Part shown: positions 2,175-64,000 of the stretch, one piece after another
Layout of the letters: the number at the start of each line of letters is the position of its first letter
How positions within the stretch are numbered: the first letter of the stretch is position 1
From: Aequorivita iocasae
Lineage (GTDB): Bacteria; Bacteroidota; Bacteroidia; Flavobacteriales; Flavobacteriaceae
Assembly (NCBI RefSeq): GCF_016757735.1
Contig: NZ_CP068439.1
Coordinates: 1,984,001-2,048,000, forward strand
Reading direction: 5' to 3'
Length of the DNA: 64,000 nt
Program-made: the position numbers and the translations under genes
The notes under the pieces: model-generated
What the model saw: only the letters and a program-made list of their open reading frames with translations
What the model was told of the DNA's origin: nothing
Database searches by the model: none

Positions 2175-3460
2175 ATTTTTGAAGTTATTTTTCGGAATAA
2201 AATAATTCCGATTAAAATGGCAAAAAAGTAATTGTAAAATAAATAGCGCATAATGGAATGCGAAGCAAATGCCACGATCATTGCATTTGAAACTATAAGT
2301 GTGGAACCAAATAGCAGCAATCCATTATTGACAGACCATTTTCTAAAAGTAATTATTGTGCTATAAAGAAAAAGAAGCAATGTGAGCACTGCCGGCAGGA
2401 TTCCCTTAAAACCGTGAAAAATACCTTCAAAATAAATAGATATGTATTTTTCGAAATTATCTTTCACCAAAACGGGAAGCATATTTTTTGCGGCCTTTTC
2501 GGCCAAAATTACATTTTCACTCAATTTATTGGTTTTGCTCTCAAAATAGTTCATCGTGGGAACGTGAAAAGATCTATTGCAGATCCACGGAAAATTGTTG
2601 TGAAAAAGCATGTATTTTTCAGTGGCGTCGCCTTCTACCTTTGAACTCAAAAGACCTAAGCTGTCAATTTTTTGATAGGTTCTTGAAAAAACTATTTTTT
2701 CATTCTCAGTTTTCATCAAAGAAGCATCTTCTTCATCTGAAACATAAAGTGGCAAAGTGAGTGCATTTACATAGCTGAAGGGCGTGGTAACAAAGAAACC
2801 GTGAACGGCTTTATGATATGTCTTGTCTAAGGTTTGAGTGATAATTGGCAAAATAAAAAGAAGTATCCCAAAAAATAGATTGGGTCTGTTAAGAATATTT
2901 TTTCGCTCTTTTAAAATGTACAAAACCCCTAGAATGGGGGCAACAATTATAAACTGACCGCGCGTAAGGCACAATAATATAAATGCAATAGAAAGGTGAA
3001 CTAATTTATTGGGCTGGTTGTTAAATAAAAAATCTAAGCTATAAGCTATCAAAAACAGGTAAAAAGGATAGGAGAGTCCTTCCGAAGTCAGATTGTTTCC
3101 CACCAAAAGTGGCGGAAAATATGGGAAAATAAGCAGTATGAACAACACAAAATACTCCCAGTTTTTAAGTTTCAGAAGTTGTTTGCATGTTTTTTGAAGC
3201 TTGGCAATTGCCAAAAAACCTAGCAACAGCTGAAAAGCAACCACAGCGGTTTCAAAAAAGCTGCCGAAAAAAAGATCAAAACTCCTCAAAAAAAGTCCGT
3301 AGCCTGGAAACCTGTAAAAATGTACTCTAAAATAGGTGTTGGTATCGGGAGAATAGATGGCCGGTTGAAGAACAAAATAAATAAAGACCGCTAAATAGAT
3401 TAACAGCAATAACCCATCAAACGCAGAAAATTTTAATCCTCTTGTAGAATATTTAAACAA
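2171..3460 (-). CDS. Polytopic membrane protein of the polysaccharide locus
   Basis: 429 residues with roughly ten hydrophobic helices and one large soluble loop around residues 215-320. An early extracytoplasmic loop holds an SPDTNTYF segment; acidic residues in the first periplasmic loop are typical of GT-C glycosyltransferases, but no family signature is certain. Its 3' end overlaps by 4 bp the lipid-linked sugar synthase-like gene, so the pair may work as donor synthesis plus GT-C transfer (inference). An O-antigen polymerase-like role is an alternative. It is divergent from the acetyltransferase-like gene at 3560. Confidence 0.65.
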   Translation of the reverse strand: MFKYSTRGLKFSAFDGLLLLIYLAVFIYFVLQPAIYSPDTNTYFRVHFYRFPGYGLFLRSFDLFFGSFFETAVVAFQLLLGFLAIAKLQKTCKQLLKLKNWEYFVLFILLIFPYFPPLLVGNNLTSEGLSYPFYLFLIAYSLDFLFNNQPNKLVHLSIAFILLCLTRGQFIIVAPILGVLYILKERKNILNRPNLFFGILLFILPIITQTLDKTYHKAVHGFFVTTPFSYVNALTLPLYVSDEEDASLMKTENEKIVFSRTYQKIDSLGLLSSKVEGDATEKYMLFHNNFPWICNRSFHVPTMNYFESKTNKLSENVILAEKAAKNMLPVLVKDNFEKYISIYFEGIFHGFKGILPAVLTLLLFLYSTIITFRKWSVNNGLLLFGSTLIVSNAMIVAFASHSIMRYLFYNYFFAILIGIILFRKITSKI

Positions 3461-3512
3461 TTTGATGGTTTTAATTAATTATTTGTGGGACTGTAAAACT
3501 AAAAATAAATTT

Positions 3513-3520
3513 TAGCTTTA
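3513..3520 (+). promoter_or_regulatory. Possible -7 element (TAGCTTTA)
   Basis: TAGCTTTA differs at one base from the Bacteroidota -7 consensus TAnnTTTG and lies 40 bp before the TTG start at 3560, inside the divergent spacer. No clear -33 element is seen. Confidence 0.35.
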
Positions 3521-3559
3521 CATTCTTATACCGAAACCCTTTTTAAAAAAAGAAATCAC

Positions 3560-4543
3560 TTGGAAAGCAATACATTTTCAGTAAAAAAATATACTGCGGA
3601 AGATAAACTTTTGTGGCAGAAATTTCTGGAGAATTCCAAAAATGCAACTTTTCTGTTTCAAAGGGATTTTATGGAATATCATGCCGACAGATTTACGGAT
3701 TATTCCCTTCTGGTATTTAAAAAAGGAAAAGTTGTTGCGGCCCTGCCAGCAAATATTTCTGAAAATACCGCGTATTCCCATCAAGGATTGACCTACGGAG
3801 GTTTGCTGCTTCAGAAAAAAACAAAGTTGAAGGAAGTTGTTTTGATTTTTAGCAGTGTGCTTCAATTTCTGAATGAAGCGGGAATTGAACATCTTCATTT
3901 AAAAATGTTGCCGAAAATATATAATTTATTGCCTTCTGATGAAATGGATTATCTGCTTTTTATTACAGAAGCGGAAAAGGTGCGTACCGATGTTTTAAGC
4001 GTAATTGATAACCAAAATCCGTTAAAGATTGCTGCGAACCGAATGGAAGGAGTGAAAAAAGCAAATAAAAGCGAGCTTCGGATTGAGGAAGAAAATGATT
4101 TTGAACCGTTTTGGGAAAAAATATTGATTCCCAACTTAGCTCTTCGCCATCAAGCGCTGCCTGTACATTCATTTGGTGAAATAACCGAACTGGCAAACAA
4201 TTTTCCGAAGAACATCATCCAGTTTAATGTTTATAAAGCAGATGAAATTGTAGGCGGCGCAACTATTTTTGAAACCGAAACCGTAGCGCACGTGCAGTAT
4301 ATTTCTGCAAATGAGGACAAGCAGCAATTGGGGACGTTGGATTTTTTATTTGAGTATTTAATAACCGAGCGTTTCAGAAATAAAAGATATTTCGATTTTG
4401 GGACTTCCAACGAGAACCATGGGAAAAACATAAATGAAGGCCTGCTTTATTGGAAGGAATGTTTTGGGGGCCGCTGCATTGTACAATCATTTTATGAAGT
4501 GAAAACCGCAAATTATAAAAAATTAGCAACCGTTTTTTTATGA
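3560..4543 (+). CDS. GNAT/FemAB-like acyltransferase
   Basis: 327 residues from a TTG start that follows an A-rich stretch; no ATG lies nearby in frame. The layout is two GNAT-like halves as in FemAB-type proteins. A segment around residue 230 ([19 protein letters not shown]) followed by a terminal [23 protein letters not shown] resembles FemAB/GNAT proteins of polysaccharide loci. It overlaps the following aminotransferase gene by 4 bp (ATGA). A natural reading is that it acylates an amino sugar made by the next enzyme; that substrate is inference. Confidence 0.65.
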
Positions 4544-5640
4544 TTCCATTTTTAGACCTACACGCCATAAATAAACGTTTTGAAAAGCAATTTCAAGACG
4601 GCTTCAAGCAATTTCTGGATTCGGGATATTATGTTTTGGGAAGTCAAGTAAAATTGTTTGAAGCAAATTTTGCGCGCTATTGCGGCACGAGTCACTGCAT
4701 AGGTGTTGGCAATGGTTTGGACGCTTTGCGGTTGATTTTGGAAGGATATAAAATTCTTGGAAAATTAAAAGACAATGATGAAGTTTTGGTTGCATCAAAT
4801 ACCTACATCGCTACAATTTTGGCAATAAAACAAGCCGGCTTAAAACCTGTTTTGGTGGAGGCAGATTTTAATGCGTATAATTTCGATATCAATTCACTTA
4901 AAAGTGCTATTTCAGAAAAAACGAAGGCGATAATGCCCGTTCATCTCTACGGACAGCTTTCGCCAATGGAAGAAATTTTAAAGATTTCAAAAGAAAATAA
5001 TTTGCTCGTTATTGAGGATGCCGCACAGGCCCACGGAGCTAAAAATAGTGATGGAAAACTGGCGGGAAATATTGGCGATGCGGCTGGCTTCAGTTTTTAT
5101 CCAACAAAAAATTTGGGTGCGCTGGGAGATGGGGGAGCGGTAACTACCAATGATGACGAATTGGCGTCTGTTATTGCAAAACTTCGAAATTATGGAGCTT
5201 CCACAAAATACGTAAATGAGTTTGTGGGCTTAAATTCAAGACTTGATGAAATACAGGCTTCCTTTTTAAATATAAAGTTGCCTACACTGGATTCTGATAA
5301 TGAAAGCCGTAGGACAATCGCGAAAAAGTATATTTCAGAAATAAAAAATGATAAAATAATTCTTCCGCATTACGATGGAAGTGAAAACCACATCTTTCAT
5401 CTTTTTGTGGTTCGCGTTGAAAATAGAAATGAATTTATAGATTACTTGGACCGCAATGGAATTGGCCATTTAATCCATTACCCCATTCCGCCACACAGAC
5501 AAGAGGCGCTTTCTGAATTTAAAAATTTAAACTTTCCCGTTACCGTAAAAATCCATGAGCAAGTAGTGAGCATTCCCATAAGCCCAATACTTTCTAACGC
5601 TGAAGTTGAGACTATAATATCAGTTTTAAATAAATATTAG
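4540..5640 (+). CDS. DegT/DnrJ/EryC1/StrS family sugar aminotransferase
   Basis: 366 residues, the usual length of PLP-dependent nucleotide-sugar aminotransferases. It starts with the typical [12 protein letters not shown] motif, has GNGLDALRL for phosphate binding, [10 protein letters not shown] with the PLP-contacting Asp near residue 160, and [14 protein letters not shown] with the Schiff-base lysine at about K190. It would convert a 3- or 4-keto-6-deoxyhexose nucleotide to an amino sugar. Together with the FdtA-like isomerase at 12547 it suggests a FdtB/QdtB-like role in dTDP-3-amino-3,6-dideoxyhexose synthesis (inference). The start overlaps the previous gene by 4 bp and the next gene follows its stop codon directly. 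Confidence 0.88.
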
Positions 5641-6921
5641 GTGAAAATACCATCCTTTATACGCGGTAATTTGCTTTTGAAGATGACATCGCTCAATGCT
5701 GTGGTGGTAAGTATCAGGCTCTTGATTTCTGCCGTTGTGCAACGTCTTCTCTATGATTATGTAGGTGCTGTAGGACTTTACAAAATTGGTCAGCTTAGAA
5801 GTTTGTCGCAGTTATTGATGTCAATCTCTTCGCTCGGTACTTTCAGCGGCCTGGTAAAATATGTTGCAGAATACAGGTCAGACAAGGCCCAGCTTCAAAA
5901 GCTATTTAGCACTACGTTTGTTTTTACCATATTTGGTGTTTTAGGTAGCTGTATCACGCTGCTTGTGTTTTCAGACCTCATCAGCGATTATCTTTTTGCC
6001 TCAAATGAATTTTCATATATAATTAAATTAACTGCTGTTATTATTCCCTTCATCGCGGTGCAACGCGTTTTTAATGGAGTTATAAACGGACTGTCCGAAT
6101 ACAAAAAGTTTGCAAAAATCGATTTGGTCAGTTACCTGCTTACGGTGTCATTAACTCTGTTGTTTCTTTTCCAGTACAATTTGGACGGGGTGCTGATAGC
6201 TATTAGTATTACGCCGATAATTCAGGTATTGGTCCTGCTTTTCTTTTTTTTCAGAGTACTGCGTGGCTACATAAGTTTCAAGGATATAAAATTGAAATCC
6301 CCTATGGCAAAAAGCCTTTTTGCGTTTACGGTTATGTCCTTTGTGAGTTCCATTTTACTACCTCTTGTGGAAATAGATATAAGAAGCATGCTGGAAGAAC
6401 GAATGTCAGGACGGGACGCCGGGGTATGGACCAATATGACTTTTATTTCGAAAAATTATATGGTTTTTTCAGGTTCCCTTTTTACATTATATGTGCTTCC
6501 CAAATTTGCGGGAATCTATTCCGCAAATAATTTTAAGAAAGAAGTTTTCAATATTTATAAAACCATTTTGCCGCTATTTGCCGCAGGTATGATTCTGGTT
6601 TATCTTTTTAGACACCTTATAATTGAATTGTTATATCCAGGATTGACCGAAATGGCGCCACTCTTTAAATGGCAGCTGATAGGAGATTTTATTAGGCTCG
6701 CGTCTTTGGTGCTTCTAAACCAGTTTTTGGCAAAAAAATTAGTGCGAAGTTTTATATTTTCGGAGCTTTTTTCATTGGCGCTTTTTTATGTGCTGGCCCA
6801 ATTGCTTGTTGCTCCGTATGGAGTTGAGGGAATTGTAATCGCACATTTTATCAGGTATGTGCTTTATTTTTTTGTTGTTTCATTTTTAGTGTTCAGATAT
6901 TTTAAAAAACAAAGAAAGTAA
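5641..6921 (+). CDS. Wzx-like polysaccharide flippase
   Basis: 426 residues, GTG start directly after the aminotransferase stop codon. The protein is almost entirely hydrophobic, with about twelve helices in paired arrangement, as in the MATE/MOP flippase superfamily (polysaccharide biosynthesis family). It should move an undecaprenyl-linked oligosaccharide from the cytoplasmic to the periplasmic face of the inner membrane. A second protein of the same family is encoded 56 bp downstream. Confidence 0.8.
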   Translation: MKIPSFIRGNLLLKMTSLNAVVVSIRLLISAVVQRLLYDYVGAVGLYKIGQLRSLSQLLMSISSLGTFSGLVKYVAEYRSDKAQLQKLFSTTFVFTIFGVLGSCITLLVFSDLISDYLFASNEFSYIIKLTAVIIPFIAVQRVFNGVINGLSEYKKFAKIDLVSYLLTVSLTLLFLFQYNLDGVLIAISITPIIQVLVLLFFFFRVLRGYISFKDIKLKSPMAKSLFAFTVMSFVSSILLPLVEIDIRSMLEERMSGRDAGVWTNMTFISKNYMVFSGSLFTLYVLPKFAGIYSANNFKKEVFNIYKTILPLFAAGMILVYLFRHLIIELLYPGLTEMAPLFKWQLIGDFIRLASLVLLNQFLAKKLVRSFIFSELFSLALFYVLAQLLVAPYGVEGIVIAHFIRYVLYFFVVSFLVFRYFKKQRK

Positions 6922-6977
6922 ATTTTAAAGGAAAAAATCAGGTAAAGTTTAGATAGCTTTGAAACCAATTTTGTTGC

Positions 6978-8459
6978 ATGCTTGATTCTAAAAACTCTTA
7001 CAGACAGGTAATTAAGGCCACTTCGCTTTTTGGGGGGGTTCAGGTATTCAATATTTTGATTTCCATAGTTCGCTCAAAATTTATCGCCTTGTGGATAGGC
7101 CCTGCGGGTTTTGGCATCGCCACGCTTTTGAACACGACCATAGGCCTCATCAACGGAATGACCAATTTGGGATTGGACAGAAGTGCCGTAAAGGATATTT
7201 CCTTCAGTCATGCCAACGCACAACCTGAAGGTACCGCACGCACCATCCAAATTGTGAAGAGATTAGTGTGGTTTACCGCTATTTTGGGCAGTGTAATTAT
7301 GCTTGCGGGCGCTCCGTGGTGGAGTGAGATTGCCTTTGACTCAAAGGAATATACCCTATCCTTTGTCTGGATTTCTTTGGCACTGTTTTTTAAACAGCTT
7401 TCCAATGGTCAGTTGGCAATACTGCAAGGCCTTCGAAAATTAAAAAAACTTGCAAAGGCGAATCTGTATGGAAATCTTTTGGCACTGCTCATTACGCTTC
7501 CCCTGTATTATTTTTACCGAATTGACGCCATTGTACCTGCAATAATAATTTCTTCTTTTATCGTTTTTATTTTTACCTATTATTTCGCCCATAGTGAAAA
7601 GGTTGCTACCATTAAACTTACCAACAGGGAAGCTTTTGTTGAAGGAAAAACAATGGTGCAATTGGGGCTTACGCTGAGCATTAGCAGTATGATCGGTCTT
7701 TTGGTAGCGTATATTATTCAAATCTTTATTAGCCAAACTGGGGGGCTGTCGGAAGTGGGTCTATACAACGCCGGGTTTGTTATTCTGAATGCATATGTGG
7801 GGCTGGTCTTTACGGCTATGGAAACGGATTATTTTCCGAGATTATCTGCAATTTCCGATAGGATTGAAGCCATACGCCAAACCGTTCTTGAACAAGCTTT
7901 TATCGCTATTCTTCTCATTCTGCCAATTATAGTAATTTTTTTGGCGGCCGCGCCATTCATTATTGTGCTTTTATATTCCAATGAATTTGTACCGATAATA
8001 GATATGGTTCGTTGGGGTATTTTGGGAATGGTATTCAAAGCCGTTTCCTTTTCCATGGGATACATCTTAATAGCGAAAGGTGACTCAAGACTTTTTATGA
8101 AAACGGCAATCGGGTTTAATGCTTTACTCTTAATAATGAATCTTTCCGGCTATTATTTTGGCGGTTTGGAAGGCTTGGGGATTAGTTTTTTATTATATTA
8201 TATCATTCATTTCATAGGCTTGCGGATGATTACAAAAACACGATATGATTTCTATTTTAATAAAAGCTTTTACGGCATCTTCGGCATTTGTGTTTTAATA
8301 TGTGGAATTTCATTTTTGTTGACCTATATAGAATATTCCTATCTTAAATATGGTTTGTTAATAGTTATGGCTGGTTTTTCTTTTGTATTTTCATACATCC
8401 AATTGGATAGAAAAATGGACATAAAGGAATTATTCCGAAAGATTTTTAGAAGAAAATAA
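6978..8459 (+). CDS. O-antigen translocase (second Wzx-like flippase)
   Basis: 493 residues with 12-14 hydrophobic helices. The N-terminal segment (SLFGGVQVFNILISIVRSKF followed by an IGPAGFG-type motif) is typical of flavobacterial O-antigen translocases. It differs strongly in sequence from the flippase just upstream, so this is not a recent duplication. The stop codon overlaps the next start by one base (TAATG). Confidence 0.85.
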   Translation: MLDSKNSYRQVIKATSLFGGVQVFNILISIVRSKFIALWIGPAGFGIATLLNTTIGLINGMTNLGLDRSAVKDISFSHANAQPEGTARTIQIVKRLVWFTAILGSVIMLAGAPWWSEIAFDSKEYTLSFVWISLALFFKQLSNGQLAILQGLRKLKKLAKANLYGNLLALLITLPLYYFYRIDAIVPAIIISSFIVFIFTYYFAHSEKVATIKLTNREAFVEGKTMVQLGLTLSISSMIGLLVAYIIQIFISQTGGLSEVGLYNAGFVILNAYVGLVFTAMETDYFPRLSAISDRIEAIRQTVLEQAFIAILLILPIIVIFLAAAPFIIVLLYSNEFVPIIDMVRWGILGMVFKAVSFSMGYILIAKGDSRLFMKTAIGFNALLLIMNLSGYYFGGLEGLGISFLLYYIIHFIGLRMITKTRYDFYFNKSFYGIFGICVLICGISFLLTYIEYSYLKYGLLIVMAGFSFVFSYIQLDRKMDIKELFRKIFRRK

Positions 8460-27790: not shown

Positions 27791-29026
27791 GTGAATTTCG
27801 AATTTTTCATCGCTCGGCGCATCATTGCTTCCAAGGACTATAAAAGTAGTATTTCGGCACCGATAATAAAAATTGCAATTACCGCAATTGCGCTCGGCAT
27901 TATTATGATGCTAATTTCCATTGCCACAGGCGTTGGACTTCAAAAAAAGATACGCGAAAAGGTTTCGGCTTTTAATGGCGACATCATTATTACGAATTTC
28001 GACACCAACTTTTCCAACGATTCGCAAAACCCGATTTCAAAAAAACAGGACTTTTATCCAACCTTTAAAAATATTGAAGGAATAAAACACGTGCAAATCA
28101 CTGCTTCAAAAGGCGGCGTAATCCGCACCGAAACAGATTTTGAAGGCGTGGTTGTAAAAGGCGTTGGTGAAGATTATGATTGGGAATATTTCAAGGATTA
28201 TTTGGTTGAAGGCAAACTACCGGATTTTAAAGGTGTTTTAAATGAAGATATTCTTATTTCAGAGTATTTGGCGAATCGGCTACATCTAAAATTAGGCGAT
28301 AAAGTGACCACTTTCTTCCTGAACGATGAAGTCTCAAAAACGCCACGCAGCCGCGGTTTTGATATCGTGGGAATTTACAATAGTGGCTTTCAGCAGTTTG
28401 ACGAACAGTTTATAATTACAGACATTCGCCACATTCAAAGATTGAATAAATGGGAAGACGACCAAATTGGCGCGTTCGAGGTTTTTGTGAACGATTTTGA
28501 TGAAATTATCCCTATTGGGCAAGAAGTTTATAACGAAACGGCAAGCACTTTGGACACGCAGACCATCCGCCAGAAATATGCCTCCATTTTTGAATGGCTC
28601 GATCTTTTCGATTTCAATATTATAATGATTATTGGAATTATGATTTTAGTGGCGGGCATCAATATGATTACGGCGCTTTTGGTTTTGATTTTAGAAAGAA
28701 CCCAAATGATAGGGATTTTGAAAGCCTTGGGCAGCAGCGATTGGAGCGTGCGGAAAGTGTTTTTGTATAACGCAATGTATTTGATTGGCGTCGGTCTTTT
28801 TTGGGGAAATGTTATTGGAATCGGGCTGCTTTTGGTTCAGAAATACGGAAAAGTTTTTAAACTTAATCCAGATACTTATTACGTTAACGAAGCGCCTGTT
28901 TATTTGAGTTGGGATTATATTTTAATTTTGAACGCAGGTACTTTTCTACTTTGTCTTTTAATGCTTTTGATACCTTCTTTTATCATTTCAAAAATTTCTC
29001 CTGTGAAGGCGATTCGGTTTGAGTAA
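27791..29026 (+). CDS. LolC/FtsX-type ABC transporter permease
   Basis: 411 residues, GTG start. The N-terminus FFIARRIIASKDYKSSISAPIIKIAITAIALGIIMMLISIATG contains the first membrane helix, followed by a periplasmic MacB-PCD-like domain (residues 50-265) and three C-terminal helices including AGINMITALLVLILERTQMIGILKALG, the FtsX signature with the coupling helix. This is the architecture of LolC/E lipoprotein-release permeases. The ATPase is not adjacent. The start lies 9 bp from the start of the divergent NamZ-like gene. Confidence 0.87.
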   Translation: MNFEFFIARRIIASKDYKSSISAPIIKIAITAIALGIIMMLISIATGVGLQKKIREKVSAFNGDIIITNFDTNFSNDSQNPISKKQDFYPTFKNIEGIKHVQITASKGGVIRTETDFEGVVVKGVGEDYDWEYFKDYLVEGKLPDFKGVLNEDILISEYLANRLHLKLGDKVTTFFLNDEVSKTPRSRGFDIVGIYNSGFQQFDEQFIITDIRHIQRLNKWEDDQIGAFEVFVNDFDEIIPIGQEVYNETASTLDTQTIRQKYASIFEWLDLFDFNIIMIIGIMILVAGINMITALLVLILERTQMIGILKALGSSDWSVRKVFLYNAMYLIGVGLFWGNVIGIGLLLVQKYGKVFKLNPDTYYVNEAPVYLSWDYILILNAGTFLLCLLMLLIPSFIISKISPVKAIRFE

Positions 29027-29172
29027 TAAAATCAATTGGCACTCAATCACTTTTAAAATTCCTAATTCTATTCTAACTTTAAATAAGCAACTAACCTATG
29101 GAAGAATCCATAGGTGGAATAGCTTTTTAATAGTATTGCTTAAACATATAAGAGAGTTATCTTTAATTCTTA

Positions 29173-29249
29173 TATAGTATATTTATAGTATGTATATAGT
29201 ATGTATATAGTATATATATAGTATGTTTATAGCGTATTTAAAGTATATA
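29173..29249. repeat. Seven tandem copies of an 11-bp AT-rich unit
   Basis: The units are TATAGTATATT, TATAGTATGTA (twice), TATAGTATATA, TATAGTATGTT, TATAGCGTATT and TAAAGTATATA, without gaps. The period is near one helical turn, which would be expected to bend DNA. It sits about 130 bp upstream of the cystathionine beta-synthase-like promoter. Confidence 0.85.
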
Positions 29250-29354
29250 TTCTTTAACTTTTACTTATACTTATTTGTCAATCTTCTAATTCTCTATTTT
29301 TTGGCAAAAATCATTAAGCATTTCGATATTAATAGGTATTGGGTAAGTAATGCA

Positions 29355-29384
29355 TTTTGTTTTCATCTATTAATTGTACCTTTG
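29355..29384 (+). promoter_or_regulatory. Promoter of the cystathionine beta-synthase-like gene
   Basis: TTTTG at 29355-29359 and an exact TAnnTTTG (TACCTTTG, 29377-29384) are separated by 17 bp. The start codon is 17 bp further on. Confidence 0.75.
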
Positions 29385-56683: not shown

Positions 56684-59600
56684 ATGTTTAAAATAATTAC
56701 TAAATTATTTGCTTCTGATAAGAGGTTCTTAATAGGTCTCATTTTAATAGTTTGCTTGAGTAGCCAAGGTTATTCTCAGGTAAAAGAATCTAGCGATGGA
56801 GAACAGGTAATATTGCCATATTCCCAAGAATATTTGGATCAATATAACGCTAATTTAGATAAAAAAGCGGCGGAATATAATTCAACTTTCCGTTCAAGGT
56901 CTAAAGCTGAAGCTTTCAATAACGCCCAAAGAGGAGGAACGGTTGGGGCTTGTAATTTAATTACTTGCGGTTCCTTTGAAAAAACGGATGTTAACGGGGG
57001 AACTTTCCGCACCGCTGTAGGGGGAACAAATGGACAATACCAAGCCGATGCCAGATATACTTGCTGGAACGATGATGGGACGGTTGATTGGTCAGAGGGA
57101 CAGTATATTTCTTACTCAACTACGAACTCAAACGTTTTATATCCCGCTATTATAGAACCTTCCACATTTGATGGAGGTGGTTTTGCTATTTTTTCTTATC
57201 AAAATGAAGCAATTCGTCAAACTTTAAATGTTGTTCCAAATACAATTTATACCGTGTGTTTTGAAATAGCAGTAATACCTCGATATAATACGGTAAACAG
57301 TAACAATCAAGGAGGTGGAGTAATTGAATATGCGCCCAATTTGCAATTTGGAGTAAGAAATGGGGCTGTTCAAATTTCTGATCCATTAACTTACACCCAC
57401 AACGATTTAGTACAGCATCCATTGAGTGATTTCCCAACGAGATTATCATTTGCCACAAATGGTAATAACGGAAATCAGAACCCTGGAGGCTGGACCGAGA
57501 TAAACCCTTATTGGGAAAATAGATGTATTACTTTTAGATCTGGCAATAGTGCTACATCGGTTGAAGTTTTTTACAAAACTGGAAACCCTGGAAGATCAGT
57601 TGTTTTAGTTGATGGTTTAAGATTATCGGTTGAGGGTTATGCAAATGCCCCTACGCTTTCTCTAACTGAAAAGACCTATTGTGTGCCTACACAAGTACAA
57701 CTAGATAGCTTTGTTACTTCTACAACTCCACCAGGAGCACAATTAAGATGGTCTGCTAACTCAGATTTAAGTAATCCCCTGGCTGTTAATCCAACTGTTA
57801 CGACTCCAGGTATTTGGTATGCATTTTATTTTAACCCCACTTTAGGTTGTACTTCACCATCCCGAAAGCTTACATTAACAAATACAGATTTAAATTCAAG
57901 CTACACAAAAGTAAATGTAACTTGTTTTGGTGGAAATAATGGTTCTATTGATTTATCTGTTACCGGTGGATCAGGGACATACACTTATGCCTGGACCGCC
58001 AGTAACGGTGGAAGTGGTTTAAATCCCACAGCTCAAGATCAATCTGGTCTAACTGCTGGTACTTACAATGTAACTGTTAATGACGGTACTTGTACTACTT
58101 TAGAAACTATTGTAATTAATCAACCTAATCAAATAAATGTCGATGCGGGCAATTACGGTCCACTTTGTGACCGAATAAATCCCATAACTCTAACGGGTAC
58201 TCCTACGGATTCCAATGGAACTTGGACTGGAATAGGTGTTACAAATAATGGCAATGGTACGGCAAGCTTCAACCCAACGGGTCTTAGTGGCACGATAACT
58301 GTTACCTATAGTTATACAAATGGTAGTGGCTGCTCCAACAGCGATACTGCTGATATAGTAATTAACACCACACCTTTAGTAGACGATCCGTCGGATGTTA
58401 CTGCCTGCGACAGCTACACGCTTCCTGCCTTGACGCACGGAAACTACTTCACCGGCAGCGAGGGGACAGGTACTGCATTGAGCGCTGGTTACATAGTTGA
58501 GACTACCCAGACAATTTACGTGTACGCAGAGACTGGCACTACGCCCAACTGTACCGCTGAGAACAGCTTCTTGGTAACGATCAACGACACCCCTTTGGTG
58601 GACGATCCGTCGGATGTTACCGCCTGCGACAGCTACACGCTTCCTGCCTTGACGCACGGAAACTACTTCACCGGCAGCGGTGGTACAGGTACTGCATTGA
58701 GCGCTGGTTACATAGTTGAGACTACCCAGACAATTTACGTATACGCAGAGACTGGCACTACGCCCAACTGTACCGCTGAGAACAGCTTCTTGGTAACGAT
58801 CAACGACACCCCTTTGGTGGACGATCCGTCGGATGTTACCGCCTGCGACAGCTACACGCTTCCTGCCTTGACGCACGGAAACTACTTCACCGGCAGCGGG
58901 GGGACAGGTACTGCATTGAGCGCTGGTTACATAGTTGAGACTACCCAGACAATTTACGTATACGCAGAGACTGGCACTACGCCCAACTGTACCGCTGAGA
59001 ACAGCTTCTTGGTAACGATCAACGACACCCCTTTGGTGGACGATCCGTCGGATGTTACCGCCTGCGACAGCTACACGCTTCCTGCCTTGACGCACGGAAA
59101 CTACTTCACCGGCAGCGGGGGGACAGGTACTGCATTGAGCGCTGGTTACATAGTTGAGACTACCCAGACAATTTACGTATACGCAGAGACTGGCACTACG
59201 CCCAACTGTACCGCTGAGAACAGCTTCTTGGTAACGATAAATAATTGTGGAATTCAACTTGAAAAAATTGCTAGTCCAAATAACTCTCAGGGTTGTACCC
59301 CTATAGCTCCAGGAGAATCGATTACATATACATTTAATGTTTCAAATCCAGTAGGGAACGCTCCTATAAATAATGTTGAATTAAGAGATCCATTAATTGA
59401 CCCAACAAACAATCCCCTTCCTGGCCCTGTTAGTGGAGATACATCAAATCCAGGAGTTTTAGACGCAGGTGAAACTTGGGTTTATACTGCTTCCTTCATA
59501 ATAACTCAACAAGATATTATAAATGGACAAGTTCAGAATACTGCTACAGTAAATGGACTGGTTCAAACCACAGGCAATCCTTATCCAGTTTCAACTTCTG

Positions 59601-62600
59601 ACTCGGTTACAGTAAATCTTTGCCAAAATGCTGAAATTTCCATTGTGAAATCTAGCGTGAGCGCAACTGGAGATTGTATTAATTTTGAAGTTGATGATAC
59701 AATTGACTACAAATTCGTAGTAACAAATGAGGGTGATGTTGATATCACGGATGTTATTGTAAACGATACTAAGCTTGGTGGTGTAATTGCTGGGCCTGCA
59801 ATGGGAGACGTTAATCTTGACGGAATATTAAATGTAGGTGAAGTTTGGACATATAATGCATCATATACGATTACACAGTTCGATATAGATTTTGGTTCAG
59901 TAGTGAATATTGCAACCGTAGAAGGTGATACAGCTTTGGGGCATAGAGACGCTACCAGTAATACAGTTACAGTTTTAATCTGCCAGAGCGCGGACATCGC
60001 GATCGTAAAATCGAGCGATCAAGTACCGGGCAACAACGGATGCGTTGACCTAGCGGAAGGCGATGTTATCACCTATACCTTTACAGTGACCAACGAGGGC
60101 AATGTTTCCATAGACAATGTAGTTGTGGCCGATCCATTGGTAGGCCTTTCTGCAATCACTGGCCCAACGGGCGACACCGGTTCAGACGGTATCCTTGGAC
60201 TTGATGAGATTTGGGAATACACGGCGACCTATACCGTAACGCAGTCAGATGTTGACGCTGGCCAGGTAACTAACCAAGCAGCAGTCAACGGCCTTGCAAT
60301 GAACCCATCAAATACTCCGGTATCCGATGACTCACACCCAACCTCTACCACAGCGGATGGCGATACAGTTGTGGTTATCTGCCAGAGCGCGGACATCGCG
60401 ATCGTAAAATCGAGCGATCAAGTACCGGGCAACAACGGATGCGTTGACCTAGCGGAAGGCGATGTTATCACCTATACCTTTACAGTGACCAACGAGGGCA
60501 ATGTTTCCATAGACAATGTAGTTGTGGCCGATCCATTGGTAGGCCTTTCTGCAATCACTGGCCCAACGGGCGACACCGGTTCAGACGGTATCCTTGGACT
60601 TGATGAGATTTGGGAATACACGGCGACCTATACCGTAACGCAGTCAGATGTTGACGCTGGCCAGGTAACTAACCAAGCAGCAGTCAACGGCCTTGCAAGG
60701 AACCCATCAAATACTCCGGTATCCGATGACTCACACCCAACCTCTACCACAGCGGATGGCGATACAGTTGTGGTTATCTGCCAGAGCGCGGACATCGCGA
60801 TCGTAAAATCGAGCGATCAAGTACCGGGCAACAACGGATGCGTTGACCTAGCGGAAGGCGATGTTATCACCTATACCTTTACAGTGACCAACGAGGGCAA
60901 TGTTTCCATAGACAATGTAGTTGTGGCCGATCCATTGGTAGGCCTTTCTGCAATCACTGGCCCAACGGGCGACACCGGTTCAGACGGTATCCTTGGACTT
61001 GATGAGATTTGGGAATACACGGCGACCTATACCGTAACGCAGTCAGATGTTGACGCTGGCCAGGTAACTAACCAAGCAGCAGTCAACGGCCTTGCAAGGA
61101 ACCCATCAAATACTCCGGTATCCGATGACTCACACCCAACCTCTACCACAGCGGATGGCGATACAGTTGTGGTTATCTGCCAGAGCGCGGACATCGCGAT
61201 CGTAAAATCGAGCGATCAAGTACCGGGCAACAACGGATGCGTTGACCTAGCGGAAGGCGATGTTATCACCTATACCTTTACAGTGACCAACGAGGGCAAT
61301 GTTTCCATAGACAATGTAGTTGTGGCCGATCCATTGGTAGGCCTTTCTGCAATCACTGGCCCAACGGGCGACACCGGTTCAGACGGTATCCTTGGACTTG
61401 ATGAGATTTGGGAATACACGGCGACCTATACCGTAACGCAGTCAGATGTTGACGCTGGCCAGGTAACTAACCAAGCAGCAGTCAACGGCCTTGCAATGAA
61501 CCCATCAAATACTCCGGTATCCGATGACTCACACCCAACCTCTACCACAGCGGATGGCGATACAGTTGTGGTTATCTGCCAGAGCGCGGACATCGCGATC
61601 GTAAAATCGAGCGATCAAGTACCGGGCAACAACGGATGCGTTGACCTAGCGGAAGGCGATGTTATCACCTATACCTTTACAGTGACCAACGAGGGCAATG
61701 TTTCCATAGACAATGTAGTTGTGGCCGATCCATTGGTAGGCCTTTCTGCAATCACTGGCCCAACGGGCGACACCGGTTCAGACGGTATCCTTGGACTTGA
61801 TGAGATTTGGGAATACACGGCGACCTATACCGTAACGCAGTCAGATGTTGACGCTGGCCAGGTAACTAACCAAGCAGCAGTCAACGGCCTTGCAATGAAC
61901 CCATCAAATACTCCGGTATCCGATGACTCACACCCAACCTCTACCACAGCGGATGGCGATACAGTTGTGGTTATCTGCCAGAGCGCGGACATCGCGATCG
62001 TAAAATCGAGCGATCAAGTACCGGGCAACAACGGATGCGTTGACCTAGCGGAAGGCGATGTTATCACCTATACCTTTACAGTGACCAACGAGGGCAATGT
62101 TTCCATAGACAATGTAGTTGTGGCCGATCCATTGGTAGGCCTTTCTGCAATCACTGGCCCAACGGGCGACACCGGTTCAGACGGTATCCTTGGACTTGAT
62201 GAGATTTGGGAATACACGGCGACCTATACCGTAACGCAGTCAGATGTTGACGCTGGCCAGGTAACTAACCAAGCAGCAGTCAACGGCCTTGCAAGGAACC
62301 CATCAAATACTCCGGTATCCGATGACTCACACCCAACCTCTACCACAGCGGATGGCGATACAGTTGTGGTTATCTGCCAGAGCGCGGACATCGCGATCGT
62401 AAAATCGAGCGATCAAGTACCGGGCAACAACGGATGCGTTGACCTAGCGGAAGGCGATGTTATCACCTATACCTTTACAGTGACCAACGAGGGCAATGTT
62501 TCCATAGACAATGTAGTTGTGGCCGATCCATTGGTAGGCCTTTCTGCAATCACTGGCCCAACGGGCGACACCGGTTCAGACGGTATCCTTGGACTTGATG

Positions 62601-64000
62601 AGATTTGGGAATACACGGCGACCTATACCGTAACGCAGTCAGATGTTGACGCTGGCCAGGTAACTAACCAAGCAGCAGTCAACGGCCTTGCAAGGAACCC
62701 ATCAAATACTCCGGTATCCGATGACTCACACCCAACCTCTACCACAGCGGATGGCGATACAGTTGTGGTTATCTGCCAGAGCGCGGACATCGCGATCGTA
62801 AAATCGAGCGATCAAGTACCGGGCAACAACGGATGCGTTGACCTAGCGGAAGGCGATGTTATCACCTATACCTTTACAGTGACCAACGAGGGCAATGTTT
62901 CCATAGACAATGTAGTTGTGGCCGATCCATTGGTAGGCCTTTCTGCAATCACTGGCCCAACGGGCGACACCGGTTCAGACGGTATCCTTGGACTTGATGA
63001 GATTTGGGAATACACGGCGACCTATACCGTAACGCAGTCAGATGTTGACGCTGGCCAGGTAACTAACCAAGCAGCAGTCAACGGCCTTGCAATGAACCCA
63101 TCAAATACTCCGGTATCCGATGACTCACACCCAACCTCTACCACAGCGGATGGCGATACAGTTGTGGTTATCTGCCAGAGCGCGGACATCGCGATCGTAA
63201 AATCGAGCGATCAAGTACCGGGCAACAACGGATGCGTTGACCTAGCGGAAGGCGATGTTATCACCTATACCTTTACAGTGACCAACGAGGGCAATGTTTC
63301 CATAGACAATGTAGTTGTGGCCGATCCATTGGTAGGCCTTTCTGCAATCACTGGCCCAACGGGCGACACCGGTTCAGACGGTATCCTTGGACTTGATGAG
63401 ATTTGGGAATACACGGCGACCTATACCGTAACGCAGTCAGATGTTGACGCTGGCCAGGTAACTAACCAAGCAGCAGTCAACGGCCTTGCAATGAACCCAT
63501 CAAATACTCCGGTATCCGATGACTCACACCCAACCTCTACCACAGCGGATGGCGATACAGTTGTGGTTATCTGCCAGAACCCAGTTATCGCGATCGTTAA
63601 GACGGGTGTGTTCAATGACGTTGACGGCAACCAGTGCGCCGATGCGGGCATCGATACTATAACCTATACGTTCACGGTTACCAATGAAGGAAACGTGAGC
63701 CTATCGGGCATAACAGTGACCGACCCATTGCTGCAGGCGCCGAACCCAATAGTGGACATCGTGTTCCAGGGTGGCGATACCGATGGCGACAATGAGCTTG
63801 ACGTGACCGAGACCTGGACCTACACGGCCACCTCGTATACCATCACACAGGATGATATCGATACGGGCAGCGTGACCAACCAGGCAACCGTGACGGGCAC
63901 TGCACCAGACCAGACCACGGTAGAGGATCTATCGGGAACAGATGTGACCAACGATAACGAGACCGTTATCGAGCTGTGCCAGAACCCAGTTATCGCAATC
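56684..64000 (+). CDS. Giant secreted repeat protein (SprB repeat, 73-, 133- and 135-residue repeats; 3' end outside window)
   Basis: One open frame from the ATG at 56684 to the window end, at least 2439 codons. Signal peptide to about residue 32 (GYSQ). Residues 85-325 begin ACNLITCGSFEKTD and look like a beta-sandwich ligand-binding domain. Residues 410-482 form one SprB repeat (VNVTCFGGNNGSIDLSVTGG). Residues 567-852 are four near-identical 73-residue repeats; residues 855-1098 are two diverged DUF7507/DUF11-like Ig domains; residues 1099-2296 are nine near-identical 133-residue repeats; then a different 135-residue repeat starts. SprB-type giants are exported by the type 9 secretion system in Flavobacteriia, so a C-terminal sorting domain is expected past the edge (inference). 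Likely an adhesin. Confidence 0.9.
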   Translation, partial: MFKIITKLFASDKRFLIGLILIVCLSSQGYSQVKESSDGEQVILPYSQEYLDQYNANLDKKAAEYNSTFRSRSKAEAFNNAQRGGTVGACNLITCGSFEKTDVNGGTFRTAVGGTNGQYQADARYTCWNDDGTVDWSEGQYISYSTTNSNVLYPAIIEPSTFDGGGFAIFSYQNEAIRQTLNVVPNTIYTVCFEIAVIPRYNTVNSNNQGGGVIEYAPNLQFGVRNGAVQISDPLTYTHNDLVQHPLSDFPTRLSFATNGNNGNQNPGGWTEINPYWENRCITFRSGNSATSVEVFYKTGNPGRSVVLVDGLRLSVEGYANAPTLSLTEKTYCVPTQVQLDSFVTSTTPPGAQLRWSANSDLSNPLAVNPTVTTPGIWYAFYFNPTLGCTSPSRKLTLTNTDLNSSYTKVNVTCFGGNNGSIDLSVTGGSGTYTYAWTASNGGSGLNPTAQDQSGLTAGTYNVTVNDGTCTTLETIVINQPNQINVDAGNYGPLCDRINPITLTGTPTDSNGTWTGIGVTNNGNGTASFNPTGLSGTITVTYSYTNGSGCSNSDTADIVINTTPLVDDPSDVTACDSYTLPALTHGNYFTGSEGTGTALSAGYIVETTQTIYVYAETGTTPNCTAENSFLVTINDTPLVDDPSDVTACDSYTLPALTHGNYFTGSGGTGTALSAGYIVETTQTIYVYAETGTTPNCTAENSFLVTINDTPLVDDPSDVTACDSYTLPALTHGNYFTGSGGTGTALSAGYIVETTQTIYVYAETGTTPNCTAENSFLVTINDTPLVDDPSDVTACDSYTLPALTHGNYFTGSGGTGTALSAGYIVETTQTIYVYAETGTTPNCTAENSFLVTINNCGIQLEKIASPNNSQGCTPIAPGESITYTFNVSNPVGNAPINNVELRDPLIDPTNNPLPGPVSGDTSNPGVLDAGETWVYTASFIITQQDIINGQVQNTATVNGLVQTTGNPYPVSTSDSVTVNLCQNAEISIVKSSVSATGDCINFEVDDTIDYKFVVTNEGDVDITDVIVNDTKLGGVIAGPAMGDVNLDGILNVGEVWTYNASYTITQFDIDFGSVVNIATVEGDTALGHRDATSNTVTVLICQSADIAIVKSSDQVPGNNGCVDLAEGDVITYTFTVTNEGNVSIDNVVVADPLVGLSAITGPTGDTGSDGILGLDEIWEYTATYTVTQSDVDAGQVTNQAAVNGLAMNPSNTPVSDDSHPTSTTADGDTVVVICQSADIAIVKSSDQVPGNNGCVDLAEGDVITYTFTVTNEGNVSIDNVVVADPLVGLSAITGPTGDTGSDGILGLDEIWEYTATYTVTQSDVDAGQVTNQAAVNGLARNPSNTPVSDDSHPTSTTADGDTVVVICQSADIAIVKSSDQVPGNNGCVDLAEGDVITYTFTVTNEGNVSIDNVVVADPLVGLSAITGPTGDTGSDGILGLDEIWEYTATYTVTQSDVDAGQVTNQAAVNGLARNPSNTPVSDDSHPTSTTADGDTVVVICQSADIAIVKSSDQVPGNNGCVDLAEGDVITYTFTVTNEGNVSIDNVVVADPLVGLSAITGPTGDTGSDGILGLDEIWEYTATYTVTQSDVDAGQVTNQAAVNGLAMNPSNTPVSDDSHPTSTTADGDTVVVICQSADIAIVKSSDQVPGNNGCVDLAEGDVITYTFTVTNEGNVSIDNVVVADPLVGLSAITGPTGDTGSDGILGLDEIWEYTATYTVTQSDVDAGQVTNQAAVNGLAMNPSNTPVSDDSHPTSTTADGDTVVVICQSADIAIVKSSDQVPGNNGCVDLAEGDVITYTFTVTNEGNVSIDNVVVADPLVGLSAITGPTGDTGSDGILGLDEIWEYTATYTVTQSDVDAGQVTNQAAVNGLARNPSNTPVSDDSHPTSTTADGDTVVVICQSADIAIVKSSDQVPGNNGCVDLAEGDVITYTFTVTNEGNVSIDNVVVADPLVGLSAITGPTGDTGSDGILGLDEIWEYTATYTVTQSDVDAGQVTNQAAVNGLARNPSNTPVSDDSHPTSTTADGDTVVVICQSADIAIVKSSDQVPGNNGCVDLAEGDVITYTFTVTNEGNVSIDNVVVADPLVGLSAITGPTGDTGSDGILGLDEIWEYTATYTVTQSDVDAGQVTNQAAVNGLAMNPSNTPVSDDSHPTSTTADGDTVVVICQSADIAIVKSSDQVPGNNGCVDLAEGDVITYTFTVTNEGNVSIDNVVVADPLVGLSAITGPTGDTGSDGILGLDEIWEYTATYTVTQSDVDAGQVTNQAAVNGLAMNPSNTPVSDDSHPTSTTADGDTVVVICQNPVIAIVKTGVFNDVDGNQCADAGIDTITYTFTVTNEGNVSLSGITVTDPLLQAPNPIVDIVFQGGDTDGDNELDVTETWTYTATSYTITQDDIDTGSVTNQATVTGTAPDQTTVEDLSGTDVTNDNETVIELCQNPVIAI
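58382..59238 (+). repeat. Four tandem 219-bp repeats (73 residues each)
   Basis: The units begin GACGATCCGTCGGATG at 58382, 58601, 58820 and 59039. They are nearly identical; copy 1 differs at a few sites and all vary at one spot (GAGGGG, GGTGGT, GGGGGG). Each carries two cysteines (TACDSYT and PNCTAEN). In frame with the giant protein. Confidence 0.95.
59981..63571 (+). repeat. Nine tandem 399-bp repeats (133 residues each)
   Basis: Units start with TGCCAGAGCGCGGACATC at 59981, 60380, 60779, 61178, 61577, 61976, 62375, 62774 and 63173. By eye the only difference is one codon, ATG or AGG, at residue 107 of each unit. Each encodes a DUF7507/DUF11-like Ig domain with GDVITYTFTVTNEGNVSIDN and DEIWEYTATYTVTQSDVDAG motifs and two cysteines (positions 1 and 21). 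Confidence 0.95.
63572..64000 (+). repeat. Start of a second 405-bp repeat family
   Basis: From TGCCAGAACCCAGTTATC at 63572 to the same sequence at 63977 is 405 bp (135 residues). It is related to but clearly different from the 399-bp unit (KTGVFNDVDGNQCADAGIDT). A further array probably continues beyond the edge. Confidence 0.8.

Follow-up and report, generated by a model that had tools for sequence, protein, structure and literature searches.

Nine head-to-tail copies of a 399-bp unit lie within a gene for a giant SprB-like adhesin in the stretch of Aequorivita iocasae DNA analyzed here (64,000 nucleotides; the window), and 398 of their 399 aligned columns are invariant. The sole variable column, at offset 319, is the middle position of an in-frame codon that reads either ATG (Met) or AGG (Arg), and the nine units carry it in the order M R R M M R R M M. 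We interpret this array as having been homogenized by intragenic homologous recombination, with one step that duplicated a block of four units, and we give this reading a probability of about two in three. Support for the block step is moderate because one site varies.

Pfam content and the open reading frame identified the adhesin, which continues past the edge of the window. It contains DUF7507 domains, one SprB repeat (PF13573; residues 407 to 440, E = 3.2e-13), and, at the C terminus, a CHU_C type IX secretion signal domain (E = 1.7e-27). Each of the nine array units matches DUF7507, and in the first 562 residues the SprB repeat is the only Pfam match at E ≤ 0.001. The genes that follow encode a PorP/SprF protein (E = 1.6e-92) and then an OmpA-family protein. 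SprB of Flavobacterium johnsoniae was found bound to the PorP-like SprF (PMC9143113). The window locus resembles that system in its SprB repeat, its CHU_C signal, and the PorP/SprF gene directly 3′ of the adhesin gene; it is likened to SprB by domains and gene order and differs in having a stalk built of DUF7507 units. By analogy with SprB, the CHU_C signal and the adjoining PorP/SprF gene predict a protein that is probably surface anchored and probably secreted by the type IX route. Five two-unit structure models had mean pLDDT values of 38.1 to 85.7. The model with the value of 85.7 (pTM 0.70; alignment of 11 rows) contains two strand-rich domains, and from this strand pattern the DUF7507 units are probably Ig-like stalk domains. 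No solved relatives were found by sequence at E ≤ 0.01. We count the variable residue as position 108 in the unit, immediately past model strand 102-107. The features of the locus are listed in Table 1.

Table 1. Features of the adhesin locus, in window coordinates
Feature	Position	Strand	Basis or remark
Giant SprB-like adhesin gene, 3311 aa	56684..64000, continuing beyond the window to window-equivalent 66619 (G000:C1:2040684-2050619)	+	ORF and Pfam
Second tandem array, 4 units × 219 bp, 98% match	58369..59238	+	TRF
Two diverged single-copy DUF7507 units 5′ of the array	59246..59977	+	GC3 0.16 and 0.24
Exact 399-bp periodicity, nine DUF7507 units	59978..63578	+	Mismatch list; nine full units at 59981-63571
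First four-unit block (1596 bp), M R R M	59981..61576	+	Zero mismatch at lag 1596
Variable codon of unit 1 (ATG, M)	60299..60301	+	Repeats each 399 bp through 63491
Second four-unit block, M R R M, same as first	61577..63172	+	Lag 1596 without mismatch
Ninth unit (M), after the second block	63173-63571	+	
Diverged DUF7507 unit 3′ of the array, single copy	63569..63976	+	GC3 0.68

TRF scored the array as 9.1 copies with a 399-bp period and 99% match. The variable bases, at positions 60300, 60699, 61098, 61497, 61896, 62295, 62694, 63093, and 63492, read T G G T T G G T T. When the array was compared with itself at increasing lags, mismatches numbered 4 at 399 bp, 7 at 798, 3 at 1197, 0 at 1596, and 2 at 1995. 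Identity at lag four is 1.000 versus 0.9987 at lag one, a difference that comes from one site. An earlier note on this DNA had described nine 399-bp repeats that differ at one codon in the order MRRM-MRRM-M. That description is exact; all nine of its codon starts (60299 through 63491) are correct, with the variable base in the middle of each codon, and alignment of the units, which it had proposed as a way to list all variants, yielded this one column and no others. Chance cannot explain the near-identity of the nine units, whereas the signal in the order of their one variant is much weaker. No other source of units was detected in the genome, where all 18 DUF7507 matches fell within the adhesin gene.

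Comparison with relatives provided evidence for homogenization and for the ancestral state of the variable codon. The N-terminal region of the adhesin was detected in 15 of 28 Aequorivita genomes, the window genome included, and the named loci that carry it number 13 (12 from Aequorivita and one from Flavobacteriaceae). With each species represented by a single genome in the set, array lengths are compared between species. In a second genome assembled as one contig (G001), the orthologue is 4288 amino acids long and carries 11 copies of the 219-bp unit (L050:4279-6683) and ten of the 399-bp unit (L050:7651-11640), compared with four and nine, respectively, in the window. The ten G001 units, with 29 variable columns, match one another at 96% (TRF) and match the window units at 81 to 84%. 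Since the G001 units are closer to each other than to the window units, the array has undergone concerted evolution. We labeled the G001 unit types A B C D D C′ B A B A′; unit C′ is a mosaic, its front from one type and its end from another, which is a sign of exchange inside units. The order of types in G001 is near a mirror, not a repeat, with no regular lag (p = 0.39). At the variable codon, the compared unit has ATG in five of six other species and ACA in the remaining one (G018), and within G001 eight of the ten units have ATG and two have ATA. Because ATG is found in five of the six other species, AGG is derived and ATG ancestral in the window lineage. A partial second copy of the diverged unit that follows the array is present in G017 and G010, where it reaches the contig end.

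We propose that near-identical units would allow homologous recombination between misaligned copies, either by unequal sister-chromosome exchange or by exchange inside a single chromosome, presumably with a need for RecA. Misaligned exchange of this kind would gain or lose whole units and spread variants, such that the array would evolve as a unit. In an older array that was already uniform, one T-to-G change would have converted M to R; the R unit would then have been duplicated (MRMM to MRRMM), and a four-unit block would have been duplicated last (MRRMM to MRRMMRRMM, i.e., MRRM-MRRM-M).

Counting of events is consistent with this order of steps. After one mutation, the observed order takes at least two events when blocks may be of any size, three when blocks are limited to three units or fewer, and four when they are limited to two or fewer; single-unit duplication alone cannot reach it. 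The only two-step history found was MRMM to MRRMM to MRRMMRRMM, and four-unit block duplication, which needs one mutation plus two duplications, is the most economical history. There are 126 possible orders of five M and four R units, three of which (2.4%) have a perfect period of four or less, and a permutation test on the order (5000 permutations, lags 1 to 4) gave p = 0.028. Two block duplications can reach 22 of the 126 orders, so economy alone is not decisive.

Simulations were started from nine units with one R and run for up to 60 events with uniform block size, 4 to 14 units, and equal gain and loss, settings that are arbitrary; the frequency scored was the share of the exact order among polymorphic nine-unit states. 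Block exchange produced the exact order at frequencies of 4.3e-3 (blocks of up to four units), 4.7e-3 (up to six), 4.1e-4 (up to three), and 2.0e-4 (up to two), and single-unit duplication never produced it. The alternative that survives these comparisons best is nonreciprocal gene conversion of single units, whereby R was copied three times within a fixed nine-unit array and the regular order is coincidental. Three events suffice for it, the minimum by conversion only after one mutation, and the mosaic units of G001 are such as conversion would leave. Yet conversion from random donors gave the exact order at 7.0e-4, about six times more rarely than block exchange of up to four units (4.3e-3), neighbor-limited conversion gave it at a frequency of 0, and just three of the 126 orders are equally regular. 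We consider single-unit conversion unlikely. The roughly sixfold advantage of block exchange over its best rival, obtained under arbitrary simulation settings, is moderate and not decisive.

These results bear on how the earlier note had explained the order, namely, as duplication of a four-unit block and not single-unit slippage, or else as strong homogenization with two alleles kept. The exclusion of single-unit slippage stands under the assumption of a single mutation, since single-unit duplication never yields the order. Duplication of a four-unit block is upheld as the most economical history, with zero mismatch at lag 1596, although it draws on one informative site and three single-unit conversions could also lead to the same order. 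The either-or does not hold: strong homogenization is seen across species, and the alternatives are compatible, not exclusive. Block duplication would then be a single step within a wider process of homogenization.

Multi-unit periods were also found in other arrays. DUF7507 matches occur in 176 of the 298 genomes of the family that were searched, and 30 stretches (L066 to L095) were hand-picked among the best matches listed, which therefore do not constitute a random sample. Similarity by lag was surveyed in 24 arrays of at least six units, with the window array included and the opposite-strand G001 frames left out. The best similarity fell at a lag greater than one in 10 of the 24 arrays, and four of these reached p < 0.05: the window array (lag 4, p = 0.028), a 384-bp array in G207 (lag 4, p = 0.022), and arrays in G213 (lag 2, p = 0.045) and G321 (lag 3, p = 0.009). 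Seven other arrays had p < 0.05 with lag one best; with 24 arrays tested, about one is expected at p < 0.05 by chance. The clearest case of multi-unit blocks outside the genus is a nested higher-order repeat in G212, which belongs to another genus (L070, ORF positions 3216-8291). Here a three-unit period of 1167 bp matches at 94.6% over 3909 positions, and a six-unit lag of 2334 bp is closer still, at 98.5% over 2742 positions and 99.6% in the best 2385-position stretch. Several diverged arrays are most similar between adjacent units (lag 1), a pattern suggestive of single-unit events or local conversion in those arrays; such events are therefore common too. Taken with the window array and that of G001, the multi-unit blocks of other genera suggest that stalks of bacterial adhesins can change in steps of several domains.

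An assembly or polishing artifact could in principle account for the pattern, if 3.6 kb of near-identical repeats had confused the assembler and the number of units or the placement of AGG were wrong. Drafts do fragment within this gene: among 13 draft assemblies, the adhesin reading frame is open from the N-terminal marker to the contig end in nine, and among the other four it stops at the contig end in G010 and G012. The window genome, however, is one contig of 3,353,883 bases, which suggests that long reads were used, and 3.6 kb would be short for such reads; moreover, G001, likewise one contig, holds its ten-unit array with all 29 variable columns. We regard an artifact as decidedly unlikely. 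Selection that maintains functional M and R unit types in set alternation, for example for packing of stalk domains, is highly implausible: the only surviving difference does alter the protein (Met to Arg) right after a model strand, but no alternation is conserved, because the residue is M in the compared unit of five of six other species, T in one, and I in two of the ten G001 units, and such selection cannot be shown from one site.

The proposed recombination with duplication of a four-unit block has parallels in known systems. Periscope Proteins are single-chain surface proteins with tandem, highly identical stalk domains, whose DNA identity was proposed to permit change in repeat number by intragenic recombination (PMC8201768; PMC9704523). 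The window adhesin fits this description by the identity of its array and may also fit it by its predicted surface anchoring, and the array would be a tidy example of a known route by which surface proteins of this sort change length. It differs in being a Bacteroidota protein with a type IX signal and DUF7507 units (the strings "Bacteroid" and "Flavobacter" have no occurrences in the main text of PMC8201768) and in keeping one variant site, by which the order of its units can be read. Long arrays in surface proteins can alter how far a protein would reach from the cell, and near-identity usually masks the history of such change; a single derived variant in a near-perfect array would record the likely size of the exchanged block. 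Alpha satellite higher-order repeats are produced by unequal exchange. They consist of larger units built from several basic units (PMC4431391); the window array, unlike these, is coding and bacterial, with nine units, one informative site, and two block copies only. Among the titles and abstract beginnings listed from an open-licence library, we found neither Aequorivita adhesin repeats nor higher-order repeats in a bacterial adhesin.

The arrays also differ in base composition from the genes that contain them. The window array is GC-richer than most of the adhesin gene: GC3 is 0.51 for the 399-bp units, 0.62 to 0.66 for the 219-bp units, and 0.68 for the diverged unit 3′ of the array, versus 0.15 to 0.34 elsewhere. 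A wider survey covered ORFs of at least 600 amino acids. An array qualified when its match was 93% or higher, its copy number 2.7 or higher, and its period a multiple of 3 no shorter than 120, and overlapping rows were discarded; 17 ORFs had tandem repeats but no qualifying array. The GC3 of the homogeneous arrays exceeded that of the rest of their own ORF in 24 of 25 arrays. In G119, an array of 20 × 357 bp has a GC3 of 0.61, compared with 0.13 for the rest.

Comparison of like domains within single genes showed this contrast too. Among ORFs with at least five domain matches (33 ORFs, 456 units), 18 held both homogenized units (with a paralogue at 95% or more) and diverged units (below 80%). 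GC3 was higher in the homogenized units in 16 of these 18 ORFs and in 15 of 16 genomes (Wilcoxon p = 2.5e-4), and G+C at fourfold sites was higher in 13 of 18 (p = 0.038), a weaker effect than that for GC3. Relative to neighboring ORFs, the rest of the array-bearing ORFs had lower GC3 in 14 of 14 cases, whereas the arrays lay above their neighbors in only 16 of 24, so the contrast comes partly from the AT-rich single-copy parts of the adhesins. The window array departs from the codon use of ribosomal protein genes. The frequency of G at fourfold sites was 0.18 for the 399-bp unit and 0.35 for the one that follows, compared with 0.05 for ribosomal protein genes; the remaining genes in the first 43 kb have 0.20, a background that the 399-bp unit does not exceed in G.

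Two tests addressed the direction of change. Across 21 arrays, which included the opposite-strand frame of the G001 219-bp array and from which units below 88% identity to the consensus were dropped, G/C was the majority state at 198 W/S segregating sites and A/T at 173, ties excluded, with 128 versus 130 at third positions. Species-specific singletons in seven species showed no W-to-S excess (9 W>S and 16 S>W at third positions; 17 and 25 over all positions). With both tests negative, we do not claim ongoing GC-biased gene conversion. The broader proposal that homogenized tandem arrays in Flavobacteriaceae adhesins are compositional islands in which unit exchange raises synonymous G+C by GC-biased gene conversion is doubtful, and we would give it long odds; the GC3 contrast may stem from past biased conversion, from preferential amplification of GC-richer units, or from import. 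If the proposal were true, such arrays would be natural test sites for biased conversion in bacteria, and a within-gene GC3 contrast offers a control for expression level when asking if recombination shapes bacterial base composition. Among the titles and abstract beginnings listed from the open-licence library, none concerned GC bias in bacterial tandem arrays of surface-protein domains.

Sequence sharing between species was uneven along the gene. G003 (L052:8231-8752) and G017 (L055) share a stretch of unit sequence at 98.7% over 522 bp, and their other alignments stand at 91% (1522 bp upstream), 84% (4415 bp, N-terminal part included), and 75% (1294 bp covering diverged units and an edge unit). 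The reverse pattern was found between the window genome (G000) and G010, with 97.8% over the first 430 codons and 85.1% in the unit. The units shared by G003 and G017 may reflect exchange between species or a chimeric metagenome contig. G003, G005, G010, and G018 are metagenome assemblies, and in each of them the units sit no more than about 1.1 kb from the end of a contig; chimeric contigs could therefore contribute to these patterns, as could the pairing of edge units with homogenized ones. Regarding a phage origin, the 399-bp unit had no match in 50,697 phage records, and of 33 stretches in viral_contigs that matched a pattern, 0 were confirmed.

Two minor observations concern other repeats in the window. 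Opposite the 219-bp array, a 293-aa open frame runs along the minus strand (58376-59257) and is probably a by-product of repeated sequence without stops in that frame. At 29171-29250, between an ORF ending at 29026 and one starting at 29357, lies an AT-rich 11-bp repeat of 7.3 copies.
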